Positions 468 to 13,293 of a DNA stretch of 64,000 bases are shown one piece after another. Position numbers and translations under genes: made by a program. Source of the DNA: Vulcanimicrobiota bacterium (GTDB lineage: Bacteria; Vulcanimicrobiota; Vulcanimicrobiia; Vulcanimicrobiales; Vulcanimicrobiaceae); assembly GCA_003164495.1 (NCBI GenBank), contig PLTN01000162.1:1-64000 (forward strand). Direction: 5' to 3'. Every line of letters begins with the position of its first letter. Positions within the stretch are counted from its first letter, which is position 1. The notes under the pieces were generated by a model that saw nothing but the letters and a program-made list of their open reading frames with translations, was not told the DNA's origin and searched no databases.

Positions 468-1463
468 TCAGGCGGTCGATCCGACCTGGAGACCATCTGC
501 GTACGCCGCAGCGATGCCGACGGCATCATTGAAGTCAAGGACCGACACAGCGATTGGCTTCGTCGGTCGAATCTGTTTGATCGTCGCCGTGCTTGTCTGG
601 GCCAACTTCATGTCGAGTTCAAGAATACGTTGTTGCATCACGGACAGACTCGCGATTCCGATATCGGCGAGGCTTGCCGTAGCAGAAACGGCCTGCGCGG
701 ACGGTACCGGGTCTAGGAAAACGACGTGCACCTCAGTGGCCCCGGCTGCGATCGCCAGACTAATCGGGCTATTGTTCGTTACGCCGCCATCTACATAGTC
801 GTGGCGAACATTGCTCTGCCCGAGATTCATGCCAACGGGCTCGAAAGCTCCCGGAATCGACATGGACGCCCGAACGGCGCTGAGGTAATTGTCGTTCGAG
901 AGGCGATAACTGGGATCTGGGGAGCGAAACGTCGTGAAGCGTTGTTCGTCGTCATTCGTCGCGTTGACAAAGGAGTAGAAGGCGTCGGAAGTGCCGTTCG
1001 TTAGATTTGTCGTCGAGATGATGAGCGTCGCCTTCAAAGCGTTCAGTGATAAAATCGGTTTGAGCAGTGCCTCGATTGGGGCTGGATCGTACACACCGCG
1101 TAAGGCAAGGAGCGCCTTCTTCGATCCGATTTCGAACCAGGAGTTGAGGAGATGAAGGTTTCCGATGGCTTCGAGTGGCTTCCCTCGCAGGCCCTCGACA
1201 TTGTCAATGAAGGCGCTAACCTTCTTGACAACGTCCAGGTACCGCACGGCATTCTGGCTTGGAATTGTCTTCCAGAGCTCGGCGAGTTCATCTAACGCAC
1301 CTTGCGCAAAGAACGCCGCGTTAATCGCACCGATCGATGTGCCGCATACAATGTCGAACTTCGTTCGCATTGAAAGTGCGGCAAGTACGCCGGCCTCGAA
1401 AGCCCCTCGCGCACCACCACCGCTAAGAACAATGGCTCGTTTTGCCGGCGCACTTTCAGGCAT
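468..1463 (-). CDS. Patatin-like phospholipase
   Basis: This 331-aa protein is a patatin-family serine lipase. The oxyanion loop GGGARG is at residues 15-20, the nucleophile elbow GTSIG has Ser43, and the second dyad residue is Asp225 in DGG. The family hydrolyses acyl ester bonds of phospholipids through a Ser-Asp dyad. No signal peptide or membrane segment is seen, so a cytosolic enzyme is expected. Patatins of this size occur both as housekeeping lipases and as membrane-damaging effectors in anti-phage systems. No cyclase or sensor gene is adjacent, so a defence role is only suggested by the neighbourhood. Confidence 0.9.
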   Translation of the reverse strand: MPESAPAKRAIVLSGGGARGAFEAGVLAALSMRTKFDIVCGTSIGAINAAFFAQGALDELAELWKTIPSQNAVRYLDVVKKVSAFIDNVEGLRGKPLEAIGNLHLLNSWFEIGSKKALLALRGVYDPAPIEALLKPILSLNALKATLIISTTNLTNGTSDAFYSFVNATNDDEQRFTTFRSPDPSYRLSNDNYLSAVRASMSIPGAFEPVGMNLGQSNVRHDYVDGGVTNNSPISLAIAAGATEVHVVFLDPVPSAQAVSATASLADIGIASLSVMQQRILELDMKLAQTSTATIKQIRPTKPIAVSVLDFNDAVGIAAAYADGLQVGSTA

Positions 1464-4879: not shown

Positions 4880-6157
4880 ATGGAAACTGGCGGGGTCGGA
4901 TTGCCCTCGGTCATCAGTTACGCTCGTGGTTCGCACGACGCGCAGGTTATCGGCCTGGCAGAGCGCTTGATTATGGAGGGAGTTCCCTGCGACGTAGACC
5001 TCTTCGATCCGCGCCCGCGCGGCGGTTGGTCTCGATGGATGACCGAGAAGATGAGCGGCACGGAGATCGTTCTCGTCGTCTGCTCGGAGGCATATTACCG
5101 AAGGTTTCATCTTGAGGAGCCCCTTGGCGTTGGCCAAGGCGCAACGTACGAAAGCGGAATGCTAAACCGGCGCGTGGTGGCAGCGCAAGGTTCTGAACAC
5201 GGGGTTATCCCGATTCTCTTCGATGCGGCTGACGTTCGGTGGATTCCCGAGTTCTTGCGCGACGAGACGCACTTCGTGCTGCCTGCCCAATACGACGATC
5301 TCTATCGCGTGCTGACGAACCAGCCCGCGTACGTGCGCCCTCCATTGGGTGCCGTCCGTCCACTGCCGCCGCTTGCAGGTTCTGGTAGCCGTCCTCCACC
5401 GATTGCGCCGGCAACGGAAGCAACAGCCTCAGTCGCCCCGAGCGCGCCGCAACTCCCGCTGGCTGTGTTCAAGCCACGTGAGGGCCAATTGATTTTCGCT
5501 CGCTATGCCGATTTGGTTCGTGAGCGCGGTTCGATCAACGTCACGCTTGTCGCTGGTGATGACGATGAGGTGGCGAGCGTTTCGCGGTTGAGGAATCATT
5601 CCCAGACGCTGCCGATGGGTTGGGGACTCGAGGCCGCCTTCGTGCGCGTCCGGAGTTACAGAGAAGTGACCCGAGAGGGCAGGCGCAGCGTCGAACTCGT
5701 CTTGGTGGAAGAAGATCGTCGGGGAAGCATGACGTCGGACATGAGCGTCAACGGCATCACCGCGGATCAGATCGCCACTCGTCGAGCGCGCCGAATTCTT
5801 CTTGATGAGCGCCCGGTCGAATCTGAACTGGGACAATTTTCAACCCAGCGGCTCAACGAGGAAACGCTTGAGGGGTTCGTCTCCGGTCGGAGCGGCGGAG
5901 GGGACGGGTCGTTTATCGTTACCAGGTCGCCGCTACCACCGCTCGCATCCTTCGATGACCCGGATCTCGTTGAAGTCGGCAGACTTCTTTGCGCCTTGAT
6001 GCTCATTACGACGAACTGCGTGGAGCAGATTTCTCGGCTCGTCTTGCGTCGGACAGCGGCCGGTATCGAGGTTGAATTTGTAGGTCACCGCGCGCGCGTA
6101 TACTCGAATCAGGAACCGTTTAGGATGACAATCTCGGGAGTCTGCCCGATATCGTAG
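4880..6157 (+). CDS. SEFIR-domain (TIR-superfamily) protein
   Basis: The first 140 residues of this 425-aa protein form a SEFIR domain: SVISYA at 10-15, a helix ending in AERL, then DPRPRGGWSRWM, a hydrophobic strand EIVLVVCSEAY, and a conserved-looking acidic position at Glu91 (YESGML). SEFIR is a relative of TIR; bacterial members have been linked to anti-phage immunity through NAD+ depletion. A Pro-rich linker (about 150-195) joins a C-terminal region of 230 residues that I do not recognise, which would be the candidate sensor or regulatory part. The unknown gene ending at 4810 is probably co-transcribed. NADase activity is inferred, not seen. Confidence 0.8.
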   Translation: METGGVGLPSVISYARGSHDAQVIGLAERLIMEGVPCDVDLFDPRPRGGWSRWMTEKMSGTEIVLVVCSEAYYRRFHLEEPLGVGQGATYESGMLNRRVVAAQGSEHGVIPILFDAADVRWIPEFLRDETHFVLPAQYDDLYRVLTNQPAYVRPPLGAVRPLPPLAGSGSRPPPIAPATEATASVAPSAPQLPLAVFKPREGQLIFARYADLVRERGSINVTLVAGDDDEVASVSRLRNHSQTLPMGWGLEAAFVRVRSYREVTREGRRSVELVLVEEDRRGSMTSDMSVNGITADQIATRRARRILLDERPVESELGQFSTQRLNEETLEGFVSGRSGGGDGSFIVTRSPLPPLASFDDPDLVEVGRLLCALMLITTNCVEQISRLVLRRTAAGIEVEFVGHRARVYSNQEPFRMTISGVCPIS

Positions 6158-6367: not shown

Positions 6368-9300
6368 CTACACCCCGCCTATGCTACCTGAGATCTGATC
6401 CATGTACACGCCATCGATGCCGTACGACTTCGCGATTGCTCGAAGTACCGCCGCAGTCCGCGGTGCGGTGATGGCATATCGCTTCGCCAAATCCTCAAAC
6501 CGACGCTTTTCTCCACGCTCCAGCTCACCGCCGTCGAGTGGACCGCGGGTCGTCACACCCCGTCCGTTCCGGACGCCGAGCTCAACGCCACGTTCGATCT
6601 CGCGGCTCTTGGCCCGCTCGATCGTGTCTCGAACGGCCTTCGGGGGCCACTCTCCATTCCCGTCCGGCTTCGCAGCCGCCAAAATCGTGCCGATCTGTTG
6701 ATCGACAATCGCTGACCTCTTTGCTACGGCGGCTCCAGCGCGTACGGCGTTCACCCAAGCCATGAGCGCGGCTCCGTCGATCTGACCGTCTTCGTCTGAT
6801 CCGGGCACGCGCTTCCAGCTGTCGAGCAGCATGTAGCTCTGCGTCGCTAACGCGGCTCGGCGTTCCGGATCTTCATCAGTAGCAGTAGCCGTACCGTCGT
6901 CGTCACCGCGATAGATTGACGAGACGACGGTCAGGAAGAAATCGGGGCTTTCTGCAAGACCGGTTTCGAGCAGCTTTGGTTCGCGCCCCGAATTCTGCAA
7001 GAAACCGTAGTACGTCCACTCAAGGCCAAAGAGCGCCACGCGATCGATACTAGGGTCGGCTTCAAGGCGATCGAGAATCAATCCGCAATAATGCCCGAGC
7101 ATCGATGAATCGTTGCCGCCACGCACGGAGCCGATCTGCGAGCTGGCTGCTTCCATTGCTCTCAGCTGCAACGAAGACGGAAAGTCTTTTGGCCCCGTCT
7201 GACCGATCAAAGCGACGGCTTCGACGGGCCGATCCACACGCAGCAACTCTTTGACTGCGACAACCCGATCCGCCGGGCTCGCGTGCATCATGAACATCCA
7301 GGGGACGCTCTTCCAGTAAGCGTCGTCCACGGTTTCGCCTGCCTCGCTCGCAACCCGGATCGTGACCGTATCGAACGGCATCCCGCGAAGTATGACCGCA
7401 ATCGCCTCTGCTGACCAACCTGCAGTCACCGCATCTCGAACAAGACCGGCGGCCCACTCGCTTCCGAGTACCTCGACCGCGCCAAGAACCAGCCCGCGGC
7501 CAAACTCGCGCAGCTTGTAATCTTCCGAGCGGCAAGCGCGATCGACAATTGCAGGGCGAACGGGATCGTCCAAACCGGTCTTCATCAATGCGGTTCCGAG
7601 CGCAACTGGATTCTCGACAGCCGAAGCCATCTCGAAAATCAGCTCAATGTCGGCAGCTTCGATCAGCTCGCGCGCGACGCGAAGTCGATTCTCATCGTTG
7701 AGCGCGAGCATTTTGTACAGATCATGACCTGCGTTGGTAACCGGCGGCTTCGGATAATTCGCGAAGACCCACCCGTCACGTTCGACGAGACTTGTCGGTG
7801 CGAGCAGGTCAAAGGCTTCCTGTAAGAGCCCAAGCACCGGTTCCGGCATCGCCCACCAAGTCGACGACGATTCGCGATGACGGTTGAGCACACCACGGAC
7901 GAATTCACGCGCGTCGACGCGTGTACGTTCATCGACGATCTCTCGCGCGACATCGAGAAACGCCCGAGCCATCCGCTCTTGCTGGCCATGCGTGAGTCCT
8001 ACCACGTTCTTGAAAAAATCGCTCCAACGCTCGACGTCGGACCCGACATCTGCGAGAAGCCGCTCGAACACCTCGTTGGCGCTCCTCTGCAGAAGCTTTT
8101 GCGTCGGAAATTCTTGCGCGTCTTCTTCTACGCGGCGCCAAATCAGCTGAGAGGAGTAAGACGAGTGATCGCCGCCGCCTTTAGGCAGGATTGAGAGCAT
8201 GAGATCCCAAGCGGCACGATTCGCATCACTCCGCATCATGTCAAGACAAGTGAGCCGATCTTCGAGCGATACATATGTCTGCGGTGTCCACGGCAAGAAA
8301 ATCTGGCGCAGGGTCGCTGTCGGGCGATTACCCTGGCGATTGTCTCGAGTGTCGCGTTCGGCCAGACGCGCGAGCACGGCGACCGCTCGAGCGAAGTACG
8401 CCGGCGCCCACGCTAGACGCTCGAGCGCCGAAGTCAAGTCGGAGATGTAGTCTCGCGAGAACACACCCCCGTCGCTCTTGAGCAAGACCGAAACCGGCGC
8501 GTCATGCGCGTCAAGTGATGCGTCAAGGGCGTCGAGGAATTGATCCGGAGCGGCTTCTGCAAGCGCGGGAAATTCGGCGCGCAGTGACCACCAGAGCGCC
8601 GCGTCGGCGTGGTCAAGGAGCCCGCGGACAAATCCCTCGACGCGAGAATCGATGTGAAGGTTCGGCGGCGCTTCTTCCGGATGAACCGCCATGACATCAA
8701 GCGCTTCGGCGAGGCCGGCACGCACTTCATGCGAGTGACCCGGTTTTCGTTCGCCGTATGCGATCATCCGCGAGCGGTCGACATCGTCGAATCGCGGATC
8801 GAATTCGCGCAGCGCGACTTCGGCCCCGTCGAAGAACGCGTCAAGGTCGGACTTTGTCAGAGCCGGCGCGAGGAAGAACCACGCGTCAAGTCGAGACACC
8901 CAGCGTAGCTTCGTTCCGGACCGGATGACCGGCGCATCGATGCCCGCCGTAAGCGGTTCGAGCTCGCGGGCCACATGGTCGTACGGCTGGGTCGCGAGGC
9001 GCTCGATGAGAGCGCGATCACCCTCGTACGATTCGTCCCAAGCACCAGCTAGCAGCAATGCGCTCAGTACGCCCTTCGATGTCGTTCCGACCCAACTTGG
9101 TGGAGGCATCGTCTGCGTTGCGAGAATGCGACGAAGTACCGAAACACTTCCCCCGGCGCGTTTCGCGAGAGAACGCGCCTCACCGCGACTTCGGCTGATT
9201 CGCAGGAGGTCGACGCCGACGCCGCTCTCACGTACACCGGCCATGAGCGCTTCTTCGAGTTCGTAGCGATGCACCGGACCGAGCGTTACGTCGACGCCGG

Positions 9301-10441
9301 ATCGATCACGGTTCCGTGCAATCGCGTAGACGTAATGCCCCTTGGCCGCGATACTCCTCGCGAAGCCGGGATCGTCGCTGTTCATGACGATGATCATCGG
9401 ACGCATAGCGCGACTGAGTTCGCGAGCGGCATCGTCCGTCCGCGCAACGATTGTTCGCAGCCGATGCGATTCACGGACTTCCGCCGGCAGCATAGAGAGC
9501 GCGCTCCAAAGGAACGCGCTGGCCTCTTCGTTCGTCGACGAGTGAACGGTCAGCACCGATGCTGGGGCCTTCAACCACGCGTGCACGCATGTCGCCTCGT
9601 CGTCGCGCCCGGCAAGCAGCACCGCCTCGGGGAGCGGTGGTACCGTCGCGAGCGAGAAACGCTCCCACGCTTCCTTTAGCGACTCGATGCCGGTGCGTGG
9701 AACTTTCCCGATCCGTTCCGCAAGCCAGAGCTGCACGCCCGGATGCTCGTCGAGCCAGTGAACTAAATCGTCGACATCGAGCGCCATCACGTCCGCGAAG
9801 ACCCGCCGCGCGCGCTGCCGCGCGATCCAGACGTCCTTCCCCGGCCAATTCCGCATTACAACGAAGACGAACGACATCGCTTGACGCGTCTCGGGATCGA
9901 GCGCTTCTTCTCGCTTCTTGAAGTCACCGTCGGCCTTCTTGTCGATGCCGCTGTTGACCGTCAGCTCCCAGCCGGACTTCCCGATCGGCACGCGATTCGC
10001 TACGGCGCGCGGGGAATCGCACGTCCCGTCCCATCCGCCGGCCTGCGTGCTCTCTCCAGCTGGGAAATGTCTCATGACGTCCGGACCGGCCCCAGCAAGG
10101 ACGAGCCGGTCGATAAGCTCCGGAAGACCGCTGCGCCCGTCAAGGCGGTTGGCCCATTCGAGGAGATCGCCGCTGTTGATCAGCCGAAACGGCTGTCCGT
10201 CAGCCAGCGCCGGCTCCTGAGCATTCGCAGCAGCCAGACTCGCTTGCTCGCCGGTGAAGCGAACGCCACCGTTTTCGAGCGCCTTCGTGAGGGCGTCGAC
10301 GCTGTTTGCGATCGGCGTGCGAGCTCCGCGCTCGAAGTCGGCCACGGTCGAAATCGCCGTTTGGGCTTCTTCAGCGAGTCGTCGCTGCGACCACGCCAGG
10401 AGTGCGCGGCCTGCGCGGCAGGTTTCAGGAGCGAGGCTCAT
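6368..10441 (-). CDS. XRE-HTH / PD-(D/E)XK-like giant defence-type protein
   Basis: This is a 1357-aa multidomain protein. Residues 7-62 are a Cro/C1-type HTH (GRALLAWSQRRLAEEAQTAI). Residues about 130-200 have a restriction-endonuclease-like core: GGWDG (Asp138), then WEL (Glu159), then KK at 168-169 and a KR at 176-177, in the order D-E-K. Residues about 230-480 resemble an NTPase or STAND module but show no clear Walker A. The remaining 850 residues are helical and repeat-like, as expected of a target sensor. Fusing its own repressor-type HTH to a nuclease and sensor suggests an autoregulated single-gene defence protein. The nuclease fold is fairly likely; the target and trigger are unknown. 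Confidence 0.8.
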   Translation of the reverse strand: MSLAPETCRAGRALLAWSQRRLAEEAQTAISTVADFERGARTPIANSVDALTKALENGGVRFTGEQASLAAANAQEPALADGQPFRLINSGDLLEWANRLDGRSGLPELIDRLVLAGAGPDVMRHFPAGESTQAGGWDGTCDSPRAVANRVPIGKSGWELTVNSGIDKKADGDFKKREEALDPETRQAMSFVFVVMRNWPGKDVWIARQRARRVFADVMALDVDDLVHWLDEHPGVQLWLAERIGKVPRTGIESLKEAWERFSLATVPPLPEAVLLAGRDDEATCVHAWLKAPASVLTVHSSTNEEASAFLWSALSMLPAEVRESHRLRTIVARTDDAARELSRAMRPMIIVMNSDDPGFARSIAAKGHYVYAIARNRDRSGVDVTLGPVHRYELEEALMAGVRESGVGVDLLRISRSRGEARSLAKRAGGSVSVLRRILATQTMPPPSWVGTTSKGVLSALLLAGAWDESYEGDRALIERLATQPYDHVARELEPLTAGIDAPVIRSGTKLRWVSRLDAWFFLAPALTKSDLDAFFDGAEVALREFDPRFDDVDRSRMIAYGERKPGHSHEVRAGLAEALDVMAVHPEEAPPNLHIDSRVEGFVRGLLDHADAALWWSLRAEFPALAEAAPDQFLDALDASLDAHDAPVSVLLKSDGGVFSRDYISDLTSALERLAWAPAYFARAVAVLARLAERDTRDNRQGNRPTATLRQIFLPWTPQTYVSLEDRLTCLDMMRSDANRAAWDLMLSILPKGGGDHSSYSSQLIWRRVEEDAQEFPTQKLLQRSANEVFERLLADVGSDVERWSDFFKNVVGLTHGQQERMARAFLDVAREIVDERTRVDAREFVRGVLNRHRESSSTWWAMPEPVLGLLQEAFDLLAPTSLVERDGWVFANYPKPPVTNAGHDLYKMLALNDENRLRVARELIEAADIELIFEMASAVENPVALGTALMKTGLDDPVRPAIVDRACRSEDYKLREFGRGLVLGAVEVLGSEWAAGLVRDAVTAGWSAEAIAVILRGMPFDTVTIRVASEAGETVDDAYWKSVPWMFMMHASPADRVVAVKELLRVDRPVEAVALIGQTGPKDFPSSLQLRAMEAASSQIGSVRGGNDSSMLGHYCGLILDRLEADPSIDRVALFGLEWTYYGFLQNSGREPKLLETGLAESPDFFLTVVSSIYRGDDDGTATATDEDPERRAALATQSYMLLDSWKRVPGSDEDGQIDGAALMAWVNAVRAGAAVAKRSAIVDQQIGTILAAAKPDGNGEWPPKAVRDTIERAKSREIERGVELGVRNGRGVTTRGPLDGGELERGEKRRFEDLAKRYAITAPRTAAVLRAIAKSYGIDGVYMDQISGSIGGV

Positions 10442-10449
10442 CTCAGGTC

Positions 10450-10479
10450 ATATTAAACAACTGACATACGCTTTGTCAA
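10450..10479 (-). promoter_or_regulatory. Sigma-70-like promoter, probable leaderless start
   Basis: On the minus strand a perfect TTGACA (10,479-10,474) is followed after 18 bp by TAATAT (10,455-10,450). Transcription would start near 10,443, essentially at the ATG at 10,441, so the giant HTH gene is probably read from a leaderless mRNA. A GTCAGTTG octamer occurs twice across this promoter (overlapping the -35 box and within the spacer) and is a candidate operator for the protein's own HTH. Confidence 0.6.
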
Positions 10480-10657: not shown

Positions 10658-11602
10658 GTGGCTGACGTTCATCTGCATCACGAAGGCTATCCGTCGAAAA
10701 CGAATGCTGTCGTTCGAATCGACGAATCACGTATTCACGTGTCGGCCATTGCGACGGCGCCCGCAGTCATTATCCCGTTCGAAGTGCTCGAGCATATCGG
10801 TGATGCAGCGTTACGGCCGGCGTCGCAAATGCTACTGAGCGTTGGCGGCAGAATCTCGCATCGTAGTGATCCAACGGGCATCGCGCACGGCGTGATGATC
10901 CCGCAGCAACTCGTCACGACGTCTGAGCGGAACCTCGTCGTTCCCATGTCGACTGCTCAACTAGAGCTGATCGATGCCGAGCGCGATCCAGCGTCGTTTA
11001 CACTATATCTATGGCTCAACGCATTGGCGGATATGAAGCAATCCTTCATTCCGCGCGAGAACATCGACGATCGACACCTCGTGACCGTTTCGTCCGGTCA
11101 AAATCCGACATACGTGAAGATCGACGCTGAGCACTGGCTGCGCCTTTTAGCCGAACTCGGAAGCGATCATCGGAGGCTTCTGGAGCTGCCCTCAGTCGCG
11201 CTCCGAAACGATACGTCGAACTGGGCTGAATGCACAGTCGAGCTGCAAGCGGCATCACTCGCTTGGCGCCGACGTGAATACCGCGAGGTTGCATCGAAGT
11301 GCCGGCTCGTGATCGAAGGCCTCACAACGATCTTGGGCTCGCAATTTGCGGTCGCGCGCGGCGAGAAAGGCATGGAAGAGTGGGGCAAAGCAATCGGAAA
11401 TGTTTTGAACAATCGATGGAAAGACGCGACCGGCGGTGACCGCTCAGCGGACGGCGAGTTGCTCGTGTCTTTGATGTATGCGGCTTTTCGATGGTCTTCG
11501 GCCTCTCATCACTTCGGCGGATTCGCATTTGACAAACGAACTGCGAGTTTGTCGCTCGCGCTCGCTACCGATCTGTACATTTTCGTAGCGGGGCTCGTTT
11601 GA
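10658..11602 (+). CDS. Hypothetical protein with HEPN-like C-terminal motif
   Basis: This 314-aa protein starts at GTG 10,658. The N-terminal half is mixed alpha/beta with no known domain. The C-terminal 120 residues are helical and contain RWSSASHH, which fits the R-x4-6-H active-site motif of HEPN ribonucleases in a helix near the C-terminus. The next gene starts 69 bp downstream on the same strand, so the two look like a pair. HEPN assignment is tentative, because one short motif in a helical context is weak evidence. The upstream gap (10,480-10,657) holds a partial copy of the 47-bp repeat. Confidence 0.6.
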   Translation: MADVHLHHEGYPSKTNAVVRIDESRIHVSAIATAPAVIIPFEVLEHIGDAALRPASQMLLSVGGRISHRSDPTGIAHGVMIPQQLVTTSERNLVVPMSTAQLELIDAERDPASFTLYLWLNALADMKQSFIPRENIDDRHLVTVSSGQNPTYVKIDAEHWLRLLAELGSDHRRLLELPSVALRNDTSNWAECTVELQAASLAWRRREYREVASKCRLVIEGLTTILGSQFAVARGEKGMEEWGKAIGNVLNNRWKDATGGDRSADGELLVSLMYAAFRWSSASHHFGGFAFDKRTASLSLALATDLYIFVAGLV

Positions 11603-11671
11603 CATCGACTCGATCGACTTCAGATTGCGCGACGTCGCGGCGAGTAAATCGAGAAATATGGAGGGTTGACG

Positions 11672-12568
11672 TTGACGGGAGCACCGAAGCCGGTCGAAGG
11701 CCAACGCCGTCTGTTTCGTAAGGGCGAAAGCTTAAGCACGCAGGCACAACTCGGGATGTTCGGCTACGACGACTATTTGATCGCAAGCGGTTTTCAAAGC
11801 GCCGCCCAGATCTTGGCTGCGTCGTTAAAAGAAGGCGGCCCGCATCCCCACTTGCTCGTTTATCCGCTCGTCTTCGCTTACCGGCAATTCGTTGAGTTGA
11901 TGTTGAAGCACATCGTTCGAAGCATGCAGAGTTTCGCGACATTCCCAAATAATATCAAAGTCGACGCAGCAATGAGCGCTCATGCGATTGAGCCACTCAT
12001 CGAATTGATCGCGGGGGGAATGGAAGCGGTGGATCCGCAGCTGGCCCAATCTGAGGAGATGAGAGTTTTAAAAGGTCGAATCAGCGAGTTCCATGAGATG
12101 GATCCCGGTTCTTACGCTTTCCGGTACACGCGCGATAAAAGAGGCAAGCGATACAACGAGCCAAACACGACCTTTGACCTCGCGTCCTTCGCGGCTGAGA
12201 TGGAAGAAGTGGCGGCGCTCCTCTACGATCTCTCGGAATGGTCTGTCGAGTCGAACGCCACCGTCCTTGAGGCGTGGGCCGGCGCTGTGGACCGAGCGCT
12301 ACGTAAGAAGCGTGAGGTCGACGTTTTGTCCGGCGGTAGGAAGTTGTACTCGATGGTGCATGGACCGACTGCGGAATGGTCGCTCAATGGAGATTCTCGC
12401 TGGGCGACAGCGCATCTGCTCGGCGACAAGCTCGTGCACGTCGAACTCTGGGATAAAGCTGATGTTGAGAGTTTCCACGTTGAGCGGTTCACGCCGGCTG
12501 CCGACGACGCCGGAGTAATCGCGCTCGCTACTGAAACGATCTGGACGTACTTGAAGCGCGCCGATTAA
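11672..12568 (+). CDS. Hypothetical protein paired with 10,658 gene
   Basis: This protein of about 298 aa is unrecognised. TTG at 11,672 is chosen because GGAGGG ends six bases upstream; the in-frame TTG at 11,666 abuts that site and cannot be served by it. Residues about 60-90 (YPLVFAYRQFVELMLKHIV) and the region after them look like the helical core seen in HEPN-like abortive-infection proteins, but no R-x4-6-H is obvious. It probably works with the preceding gene. Its convergent neighbour is an Mrr-like nuclease. Confidence 0.65.
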   Translation: MTGAPKPVEGQRRLFRKGESLSTQAQLGMFGYDDYLIASGFQSAAQILAASLKEGGPHPHLLVYPLVFAYRQFVELMLKHIVRSMQSFATFPNNIKVDAAMSAHAIEPLIELIAGGMEAVDPQLAQSEEMRVLKGRISEFHEMDPGSYAFRYTRDKRGKRYNEPNTTFDLASFAAEMEEVAALLYDLSEWSVESNATVLEAWAGAVDRALRKKREVDVLSGGRKLYSMVHGPTAEWSLNGDSRWATAHLLGDKLVHVELWDKADVESFHVERFTPAADDAGVIALATETIWTYLKRAD

Positions 12569-12696: not shown

Positions 12697-13293
12697 TCAC
12701 GCAGATATCGTTGTCGGCTGCGCGTGGCAGTCGCAGCTACAGTCGCCGGAACAGTCAGCGTGACGGCCGGCTGAGCAGGCTGCTCGCATGACTTTCATGG
12801 CGAGGTTCTCGGAAAATGGCGGTAGCGTCTCTGCCAGGCCAACGTAAGCGCGCCCTTTTAGCTGCATGACGAACGATGTCAGGGTCGCGTCGGCATTAAG
12901 ACGAACGTTGATGATGTCCTCGGCCTCTGCAATTCGCTCGGCGCCGCTCTGTAGCTCCATCGGTGAGACGACGATGCCCCCGAGGGCACCCGTATCGTGT
13001 ATGCGATAGGCGATCGCAGCGAGCGCTTCTTGTTTGAGCTTCGAGGTCGTGTAGCGGCGGCATTCGACGACGTAGAACATGCCCTCGTTGTTAGCAAGAA
13101 ACGCTACTCCGTCGAGCTCCCATGAGGTAACCGTACCGTCGACCTGTTGCTTGCCCTCAACGCGATCGAGGCCAAAGTCCGTAGCGAAGCGGTCGAGCAG
13201 CTTTTGGGCAATCTCTTCATATCGCTCGGCATTCGCCTGGCGGGTTGGTACGGGTGTCGACCGCTCGTCGGGCCCCTGCGGAAGTTGCGTCAT
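12697..13293 (-). CDS. Mrr-like PD-(D/E)XK endonuclease with Cys-rich tail
   Basis: This 198-aa protein has a restriction-endonuclease-like core. A helix at 20-40 precedes WELDGVAFL (Asp61) and a hydrophobic strand with YVVECRR (Glu77, then Arg79 where Lys is usual), followed by a helix rich in Lys and Gln and IVVSP. This layout matches the Mrr_cat family, which cuts foreign or modified DNA. The last 30 residues hold a cluster of Cys and His (CSGDCSCDCH) that could bind a metal. Arg in place of the catalytic Lys leaves activity uncertain. It lies convergent to the 11,672 gene. Confidence 0.7.
   Translation of the reverse strand: MTQLPQGPDERSTPVPTRQANAERYEEIAQKLLDRFATDFGLDRVEGKQQVDGTVTSWELDGVAFLANNEGMFYVVECRRYTTSKLKQEALAAIAYRIHDTGALGGIVVSPMELQSGAERIAEAEDIINVRLNADATLTSFVMQLKGRAYVGLAETLPPFSENLAMKVMRAACSAGRHADCSGDCSCDCHAQPTTISA

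Follow-up and report, generated by a model that had tools for sequence, protein, structure and literature searches.

A Vulcanimicrobiota gene joining a C-protein-like helix-turn-helix to FokI-like and P-loop-less STAND-like domains is a candidate self-repressing defence gene

In this study, we analyzed one gene, its product, and its surroundings in a 64,000-nucleotide stretch of DNA from a Vulcanimicrobiota bacterium (contig PLTN01000162.1 of assembly GCA_003164495.1; hereafter the window). The initial annotation placed a single-gene protein at positions 6368-10441. The coordinates were correct and contain one gene, but it runs on the minus strand. Judged by homologues of matching length, the open reading frame is a genuine gene. 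The features of the gene, its product, and its upstream region were as follows.

6368..10441, minus strand: main gene, a single open frame of 1357 amino acids, with the ATG at 10441 and the stop at 6368
10256..10417, minus strand: XRE/C-protein-type helix-turn-helix (HTH), residues 9-62 (4yba, PADLOC Control_protein, Pfam HTH_3)
9752..10186, minus strand: PD-(D/E)XK-type domain, residues 86-230 (alignment, AlphaFold, fold comparison)
10028-10030, 9965-9967, and 9935-9937, minus strand: codons of D138, E159, and K169, respectively, all invariant
8987..9694, minus strand: STAND/AAA+-like domain without a P-loop, residues 250-485 (predicted-fold matches)
6398..8986, minus strand: alpha-solenoid of about 860 residues, putative sensor (predicted structure)
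10450..10479, minus strand: promoter-like TTGACA-18-TAATAT (matches the consensus; 1 such site against an expectation of 0.2)
10447..10465, minus strand: operator-like palindrome GTCAgttgtttaATATGAC (agrees with the family motif GTCATAT-N5-ATATGAC at 12/14)

Three further genomes from the taxonomic family to which the window belongs contain full-length homologues of the main gene, with identities of 59, 51, and 50%. A search of the phylum gave matches to the protein in 5 of 149 genomes, one of the five being partial. On plasmids, 18 records contained homologues with 80% cover or more and 25-36% identity, and their hosts were Rhizobium, Acetobacter, Thalassospira, Cupriavidus, Bradyrhizobium, Arthrobacter, Shewanella, Halioglobus, and Adhaeribacter. 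Further homologues occurred in one Cryomorphaceae and one Novosphingobium metagenome-assembled genome and on IMG/VR contigs. These proteins form a widespread family without a name, about 1250-1380 amino acids in length, which is located on plasmids, prophage-like contigs, and islands. Since the homologues are patchy yet spread widely, their distribution points to horizontal transfer of the family. The parts are arranged in the order of an optional N-terminal HTH, the PD-(D/E)XK domain, the STAND/AAA+-like domain without a P-loop, and an alpha-solenoid of about 860-900 residues. Beyond the HTH and a short PD-Lambda-4_A stretch, the core of the main protein matched nothing in Pfam, NCBIfam, or PADLOC, and PDB sequence profiles compared with the family matched HTHs only. 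Weak matches to ETF_alpha, phosphoribulokinase, and MS_channel were discarded as noise.

The HTH, first proposed at residues 7-62, was confirmed at residues 9-62. It was nearest to the restriction-modification (RM) controller C.Csp231I (4yba), with E-values of 9.7e-10 when the single sequence was used and 3e-13 with the family profile, and it matched the PADLOC Control_protein model at 2.7e-12. Pfam HTH_3 was present in 17 of the 22 family members. Across the family, the HTH is an optional module. Six members (L008, L017, L018, L029, L036, and L061) have no HTH, and two further groups have other HTH types. When the N-terminus was left out of the tree, members with a C-type HTH and those with a HigA-type HTH fell into separate clades with a support of 1.0, and the HTH type tracks the tree of the core domains.

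The palindrome encloses the -10 hexamer of the promoter-like sequence. This hexamer ends 8 bases ahead of the start codon, and the mRNA would therefore be leaderless or nearly so. Members with a C-type HTH carry GTCATAT-N5-ATATGAC over the -10/start region, at -14 to -26 upstream. The motif scored 14/14 in L005, L011, L014, and L019, 13 in L006, 12 in L012, L021, and the query, and 11 in L013. When the motif was derived solely from the rhizobial members, which suffice to define it, 1 of 5000 dinucleotide shuffles attained the score of the query and none attained the scores of L005 and L006. With up to two mismatches allowed, the motif had a single site in the 5.37 Mb genome, 24 bp before the main gene, and a reversed control had none. 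In nearly all relatives, sites with 0-1 mismatch in the genome or plasmid were confined to the region upstream of the homologue.

A different palindrome, TGTATTGTGTAGCGCTACACAATACA or near variants of it (19-26 of 26; 7-bp arms in L009), was found in seven of nine HigA-type members that were inspected. L026 had no palindrome, and the match in L024 may depend on the choice of start. The six members without an HTH and the MerR-type member showed background scores for both palindromes. In L023, the HTH is visibly decayed and the operator site is lost. The same operator was not clearly seen in small stand-alone XRE relatives. These results support the earlier proposal that the HTH acts on its own promoter, as the predicted operator is unique and specific to the HTH type. 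It is very likely that the HTH autoregulates its own gene, presumably by binding and repressing at this predicted site. As a separate observation, six members with HigA-type heads (L059, L016, L060, L070, L071, and L073) have a common palindrome, TGTATTGTGTAGC/GCTACACAATACA, located roughly 60-100 bases upstream of the start.

The PD-(D/E)XK-type domain shows the motif GWD138G...WE159LT161...K169A..D173..K, in which D138, G139, E159, K169, and D173 were invariant in a 22-sequence alignment whose members are 24-58% identical to the query. An AlphaFold model of residues 70-505 of the main protein together with ten homologues (predicted local distance difference test score, pLDDT, 81; predicted template modelling score, pTM, 0.79) contained an alpha-beta-beta-beta-alpha-beta core with an acidic pair, and pLDDT was mostly above 90 in model residues 71-170. 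The top solved structure for residues 82-235 was the FokI cleavage domain (2fok; Z 9.4, 138 aligned residues, root-mean-square deviation 3.9, 11% identity), which ranked above all AAA+ matches, and Foldseek gave FokI a probability of 1.00. A Z of 9.4 is moderately higher than the usual best for unmatched models (7-8), and the call of a nuclease fold therefore rests on fold, element order, and motif together. The nuclease core that the initial annotation had read from a D-E-K pattern was predicted here, with the three residues invariant and FokI as the best match, but the Lys is not at the (D/E)xK place. The initial annotation had named absence of this core as a refutation, and it passed that check. 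The main family also differs from the FokI cleavage domain in the domains attached to it. K169 is the sole invariant Lys nearby, ten residues past E159 at the start of the next helix, and it may replace the displaced catalytic Lys. We consider the domain to be probably an active nuclease.

Residues 250-485 matched the NB-ARC domain of NRC4 (Z 8.3), Apaf-1 (7.5), and Avs4 (7.5) in structure comparison, and the first Foldseek match was Avs3. Walker A and Walker B motifs were not found in the alignment around residues 296-312. The NTPase-like region of the initial annotation therefore has a predicted AAA+/STAND fold but a P-loop in 0 of 22 members. The repeat-like helical region corresponds to a C-terminal alpha-solenoid (pLDDT 84). 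Its fold matches were generic HEAT proteins, which are uninformative on the ligand. Separately, a fold search of BFVD returned nothing beyond generic clamp loaders and weak nucleases.

The protein had been regarded as matching no named system, a view that was changed by comparison with PD-Lambda-4. This system was discovered through functional selection (Vassallo et al. 2022, PMC9519451) and is annotated with a P-loop NTPase (PMC10952713). The PADLOC PD-Lambda-4_A model (PDLC03991) matched only 70 residues of the main protein, 669-738 within the solenoid (E 2e-5), and was found in 9 of the 22 members; true PD-Lambda-4_A relatives of the same taxonomic family scored 4e-34 to 8e-81. As it fails PDLC03991 over most of its length, the main protein is not a PD-Lambda-4 member by the PADLOC model. 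Profile-profile alignment with hhalign linked the main family to PD-Lambda-4_A relatives over residues 86-1348 (96.9%, E 1.7e-10, 15% identity), pairing GWD138G with GG(V/L)D, WE159 with (W/F)Q, and the P-loop with VLTVHSSTNEEASAF. Both groups have a collinear nuclease-type core, STAND-like domain, and solenoid, and they have the stretch ALE..A....F..A..VLA.LA....N..QT.A in common. The PD-Lambda-4_A relatives show D..GG(V/L)D and retain QxK, the Walker A motif GLGKTR, and Walker B. In the main family, by contrast, the pattern is E-x-[TGS] with Lys169, the P-loop is missing, and the heads are of the XRE or HigA type. Since the profile match is collinear over the whole length, these sequences indicate that the main family is a distant sister of PD-Lambda-4_A in which the P-loop was lost and the Lys moved.

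Two PD-Lambda-4_A relatives of the same taxonomic family, L039 and L040, have a KfrA_N DNA-binding head (Pfam 2e-10 and 5e-10), and fused DNA-binding heads thus recur across the wider PD-Lambda-4_A-like group. Relatives sharing the solenoid with a different N-terminus were found on enterobacterial prophage contigs (L030-L034, L037, and L045). The same solenoid with swapped N-termini suggests effector swapping, as expected of immune sensors. Separately, in L030 (3890-7429), L033, L034, and L045, the solenoid follows an N-terminal domain with a D..D..QxK-like pattern that had no Pfam, PADLOC, or PDB match. Its assignment as a Cap4/DUF4297-like nuclease was rejected, because there was only motif resemblance and Pfam and PDB profiles gave no confirmation. 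L027 (5887-8652) and L035 (7902-10691) consist of the solenoid with a short N-terminal TGHN-type leader, the nuclease part being absent.

Like Avs3 and Avs4, the main protein has an N-terminal PD-(D/E)XK-type effector, a STAND fold, and a long helical C-terminus, with STAND followed by a solenoid in the predicted fold. Avs4 aligned in structure across both the nuclease-type and STAND-like domains. Unlike Avs3 and Avs4, the main protein has no P-loop and carries an HTH head, and no sequence homology between them was found; the likeness concerns the predicted folds of the nuclease-type and STAND-like parts. The closest HTH belongs to C.Csp231I, which binds its own palindromes, CTAAG-N5-CTTAG (PMC4321490). 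The C-protein/restriction endonuclease (REase) fusion CR.NsoJS138I, which joins a C-protein-type HTH to a PD-(D/E)XK-type domain, is functional and controls its own promoter (PMC3850674). With these two on record, each piece of the mechanism proposed below has a precedent. In contrast to C-protein systems, the main protein has 1100 extra residues with the STAND-like domain and solenoid; its operator is GTCATAT-N5-ATATGAC, and apparently one operator is present rather than two. No methyltransferase was found in a Pfam/PADLOC scan of the eight neighbour proteins; some relatives adjoin RM genes. In the open-licence papers searched, these pieces were not seen combined with an immune sensor of the P-loop-less STAND-like kind.

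The neighbourhood of the main gene in the window contained the following genes.

4880..6157, plus strand: bSEFIR defence protein of the TIR/SEFIR type, encoded convergently with the main gene (PADLOC 3.7e-26; Pfam SEFIR/TIR_2 above cut-off)
12697..13293, minus strand: Mrr_cat-type nuclease-like small protein (Pfam PF04471 7e-6, above cut-off)
468-1463, minus strand: patatin-like phospholipase (Pfam 1e-30; similar to PADLOC phospholipase effectors, 1e-14)
10658-11602 and 11666-12568, plus strand: a pair of genes oriented divergently to the main gene and lacking Pfam/PADLOC matches, possibly further defence genes

According to annotation, relatives adjoin AbiEi/AbiEii, a type I RM set, SIR2, Abi, and RES/Xre genes, and also Shedu with RT/SLATT genes, REases, or HTH with ImmA/IrrE and PDDEXK genes. 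Integrase-like open reading frames were found near two relatives of the same taxonomic family. The homologues therefore lie in defence-island and mobile settings and not in housekeeping loci, as the initial annotation had expected.

The main protein likely has a defence role. The reading that we favor is that of a single-gene nuclease sensor resembling Avs and PD-Lambda-4, which probably acts against phage (or plasmid) and represses itself through its built-in repressor. At rest, a C-protein-like HTH dimer would sit on the 19-bp palindrome over the -10 and keep expression low. The C-terminal alpha-solenoid would recognise an invader-derived ligand, and the STAND-like domain, with no nucleotide bound by a P-loop, would relay the signal as a scaffold or oligomerisation hub. 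The FokI-like domain would then cut DNA, probably on dimerisation, with Lys169 standing in for the catalytic Lys. More speculatively, recruitment of the protein to its ligand or its assembly might free the operator and raise expression. In a bolder version, which we regard as doubtful, the family is a class of NLR/Avs-like bacterial immune proteins in which the ATP switch was abandoned in favor of a nucleotide-free STAND scaffold whose FokI-like nuclease toggles between an operator-bound silent state with self-repression and a ligand-bound active state with de-repression, and DNA-binding heads were acquired at least three times, as XRE/C-type, HigA-type, and MerR-type. If this were true, one protein would unite sensing, killing, and transcriptional control.

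Several observations weigh against the favored reading. None of the 22 members examined has a Walker A motif (G-x4-GK[ST]), and a protein lacking the P-loop cannot operate the usual ATP switch. The canonical Lys two residues after E159 was also absent in 22 of 22 members, which have T, G, or S instead, and the nuclease may thus be dead or altered. Neither nuclease activity nor ATP-driven switching can therefore be assumed. The operator was weak (9-10/14) in L004, L010, L020, and L022. C proteins are often activator-repressors, and since they can activate too, pure repression is an assumption. The defence neighbourhoods were judged by eye from annotation without a matched background, and they count as support, not proof.

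The change of the canonical Lys and the loss of the P-loop in all members would also fit a catalytically dead PD-(D/E)XK domain that binds DNA or serves as a scaffold, the protein then being a sensor or regulator acting via DNA or other proteins. We consider this unlikely, as the invariance of D138, E159, K169, and D173 among members 24-58% identical to the query argues for a working site, and PD-Lambda-4_A, a relative of close fold, keeps D..QxK. It is also improbable that the protein is a toxin-antitoxin-like or plasmid/island maintenance element, in which an antitoxin-type HTH and a toxic domain are kept by addiction or mobile-element competition and not by phage sensing. The strong association with plasmids and mobile elements, a whole clade with a HigA-type HTH and HigA annotation, the divergent AbiEi/AbiEii pair beside three rhizobial members, and the typical autoregulation of antitoxins would suit such an element. 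However, no partner gene is conserved beside the family, members without an HTH exist, and the nuclease-STAND-solenoid order is that of phage sensors and collinear with PD-Lambda-4_A.

A sequence-specific HTH and a nuclease-like fold in one chain also resemble the recognition and cleavage domains of FokI, so that the HTH might direct the nuclease toward particular foreign sequences, and the site upstream of the gene would be incidental or protective. This is very improbable, because the site lies over the gene's own -10, varies with HTH type, disappears where the HTH has decayed, and is the only one in the genome, and a nuclease aimed at its own promoter would be self-destructive.

How lethal immune sensors are kept quiet is an open question. 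To our knowledge, most known controls of immune sensors are separate regulators. Under the favored reading, sensor, effector, and likely repressor share one chain, and the operator is short and unique enough for a direct test of how tightly an immune gene guards itself. The family extends PD-Lambda-4-like proteins far past current defence catalogues, and it raises the question of whether STAND-type immunity may work without ATP binding.

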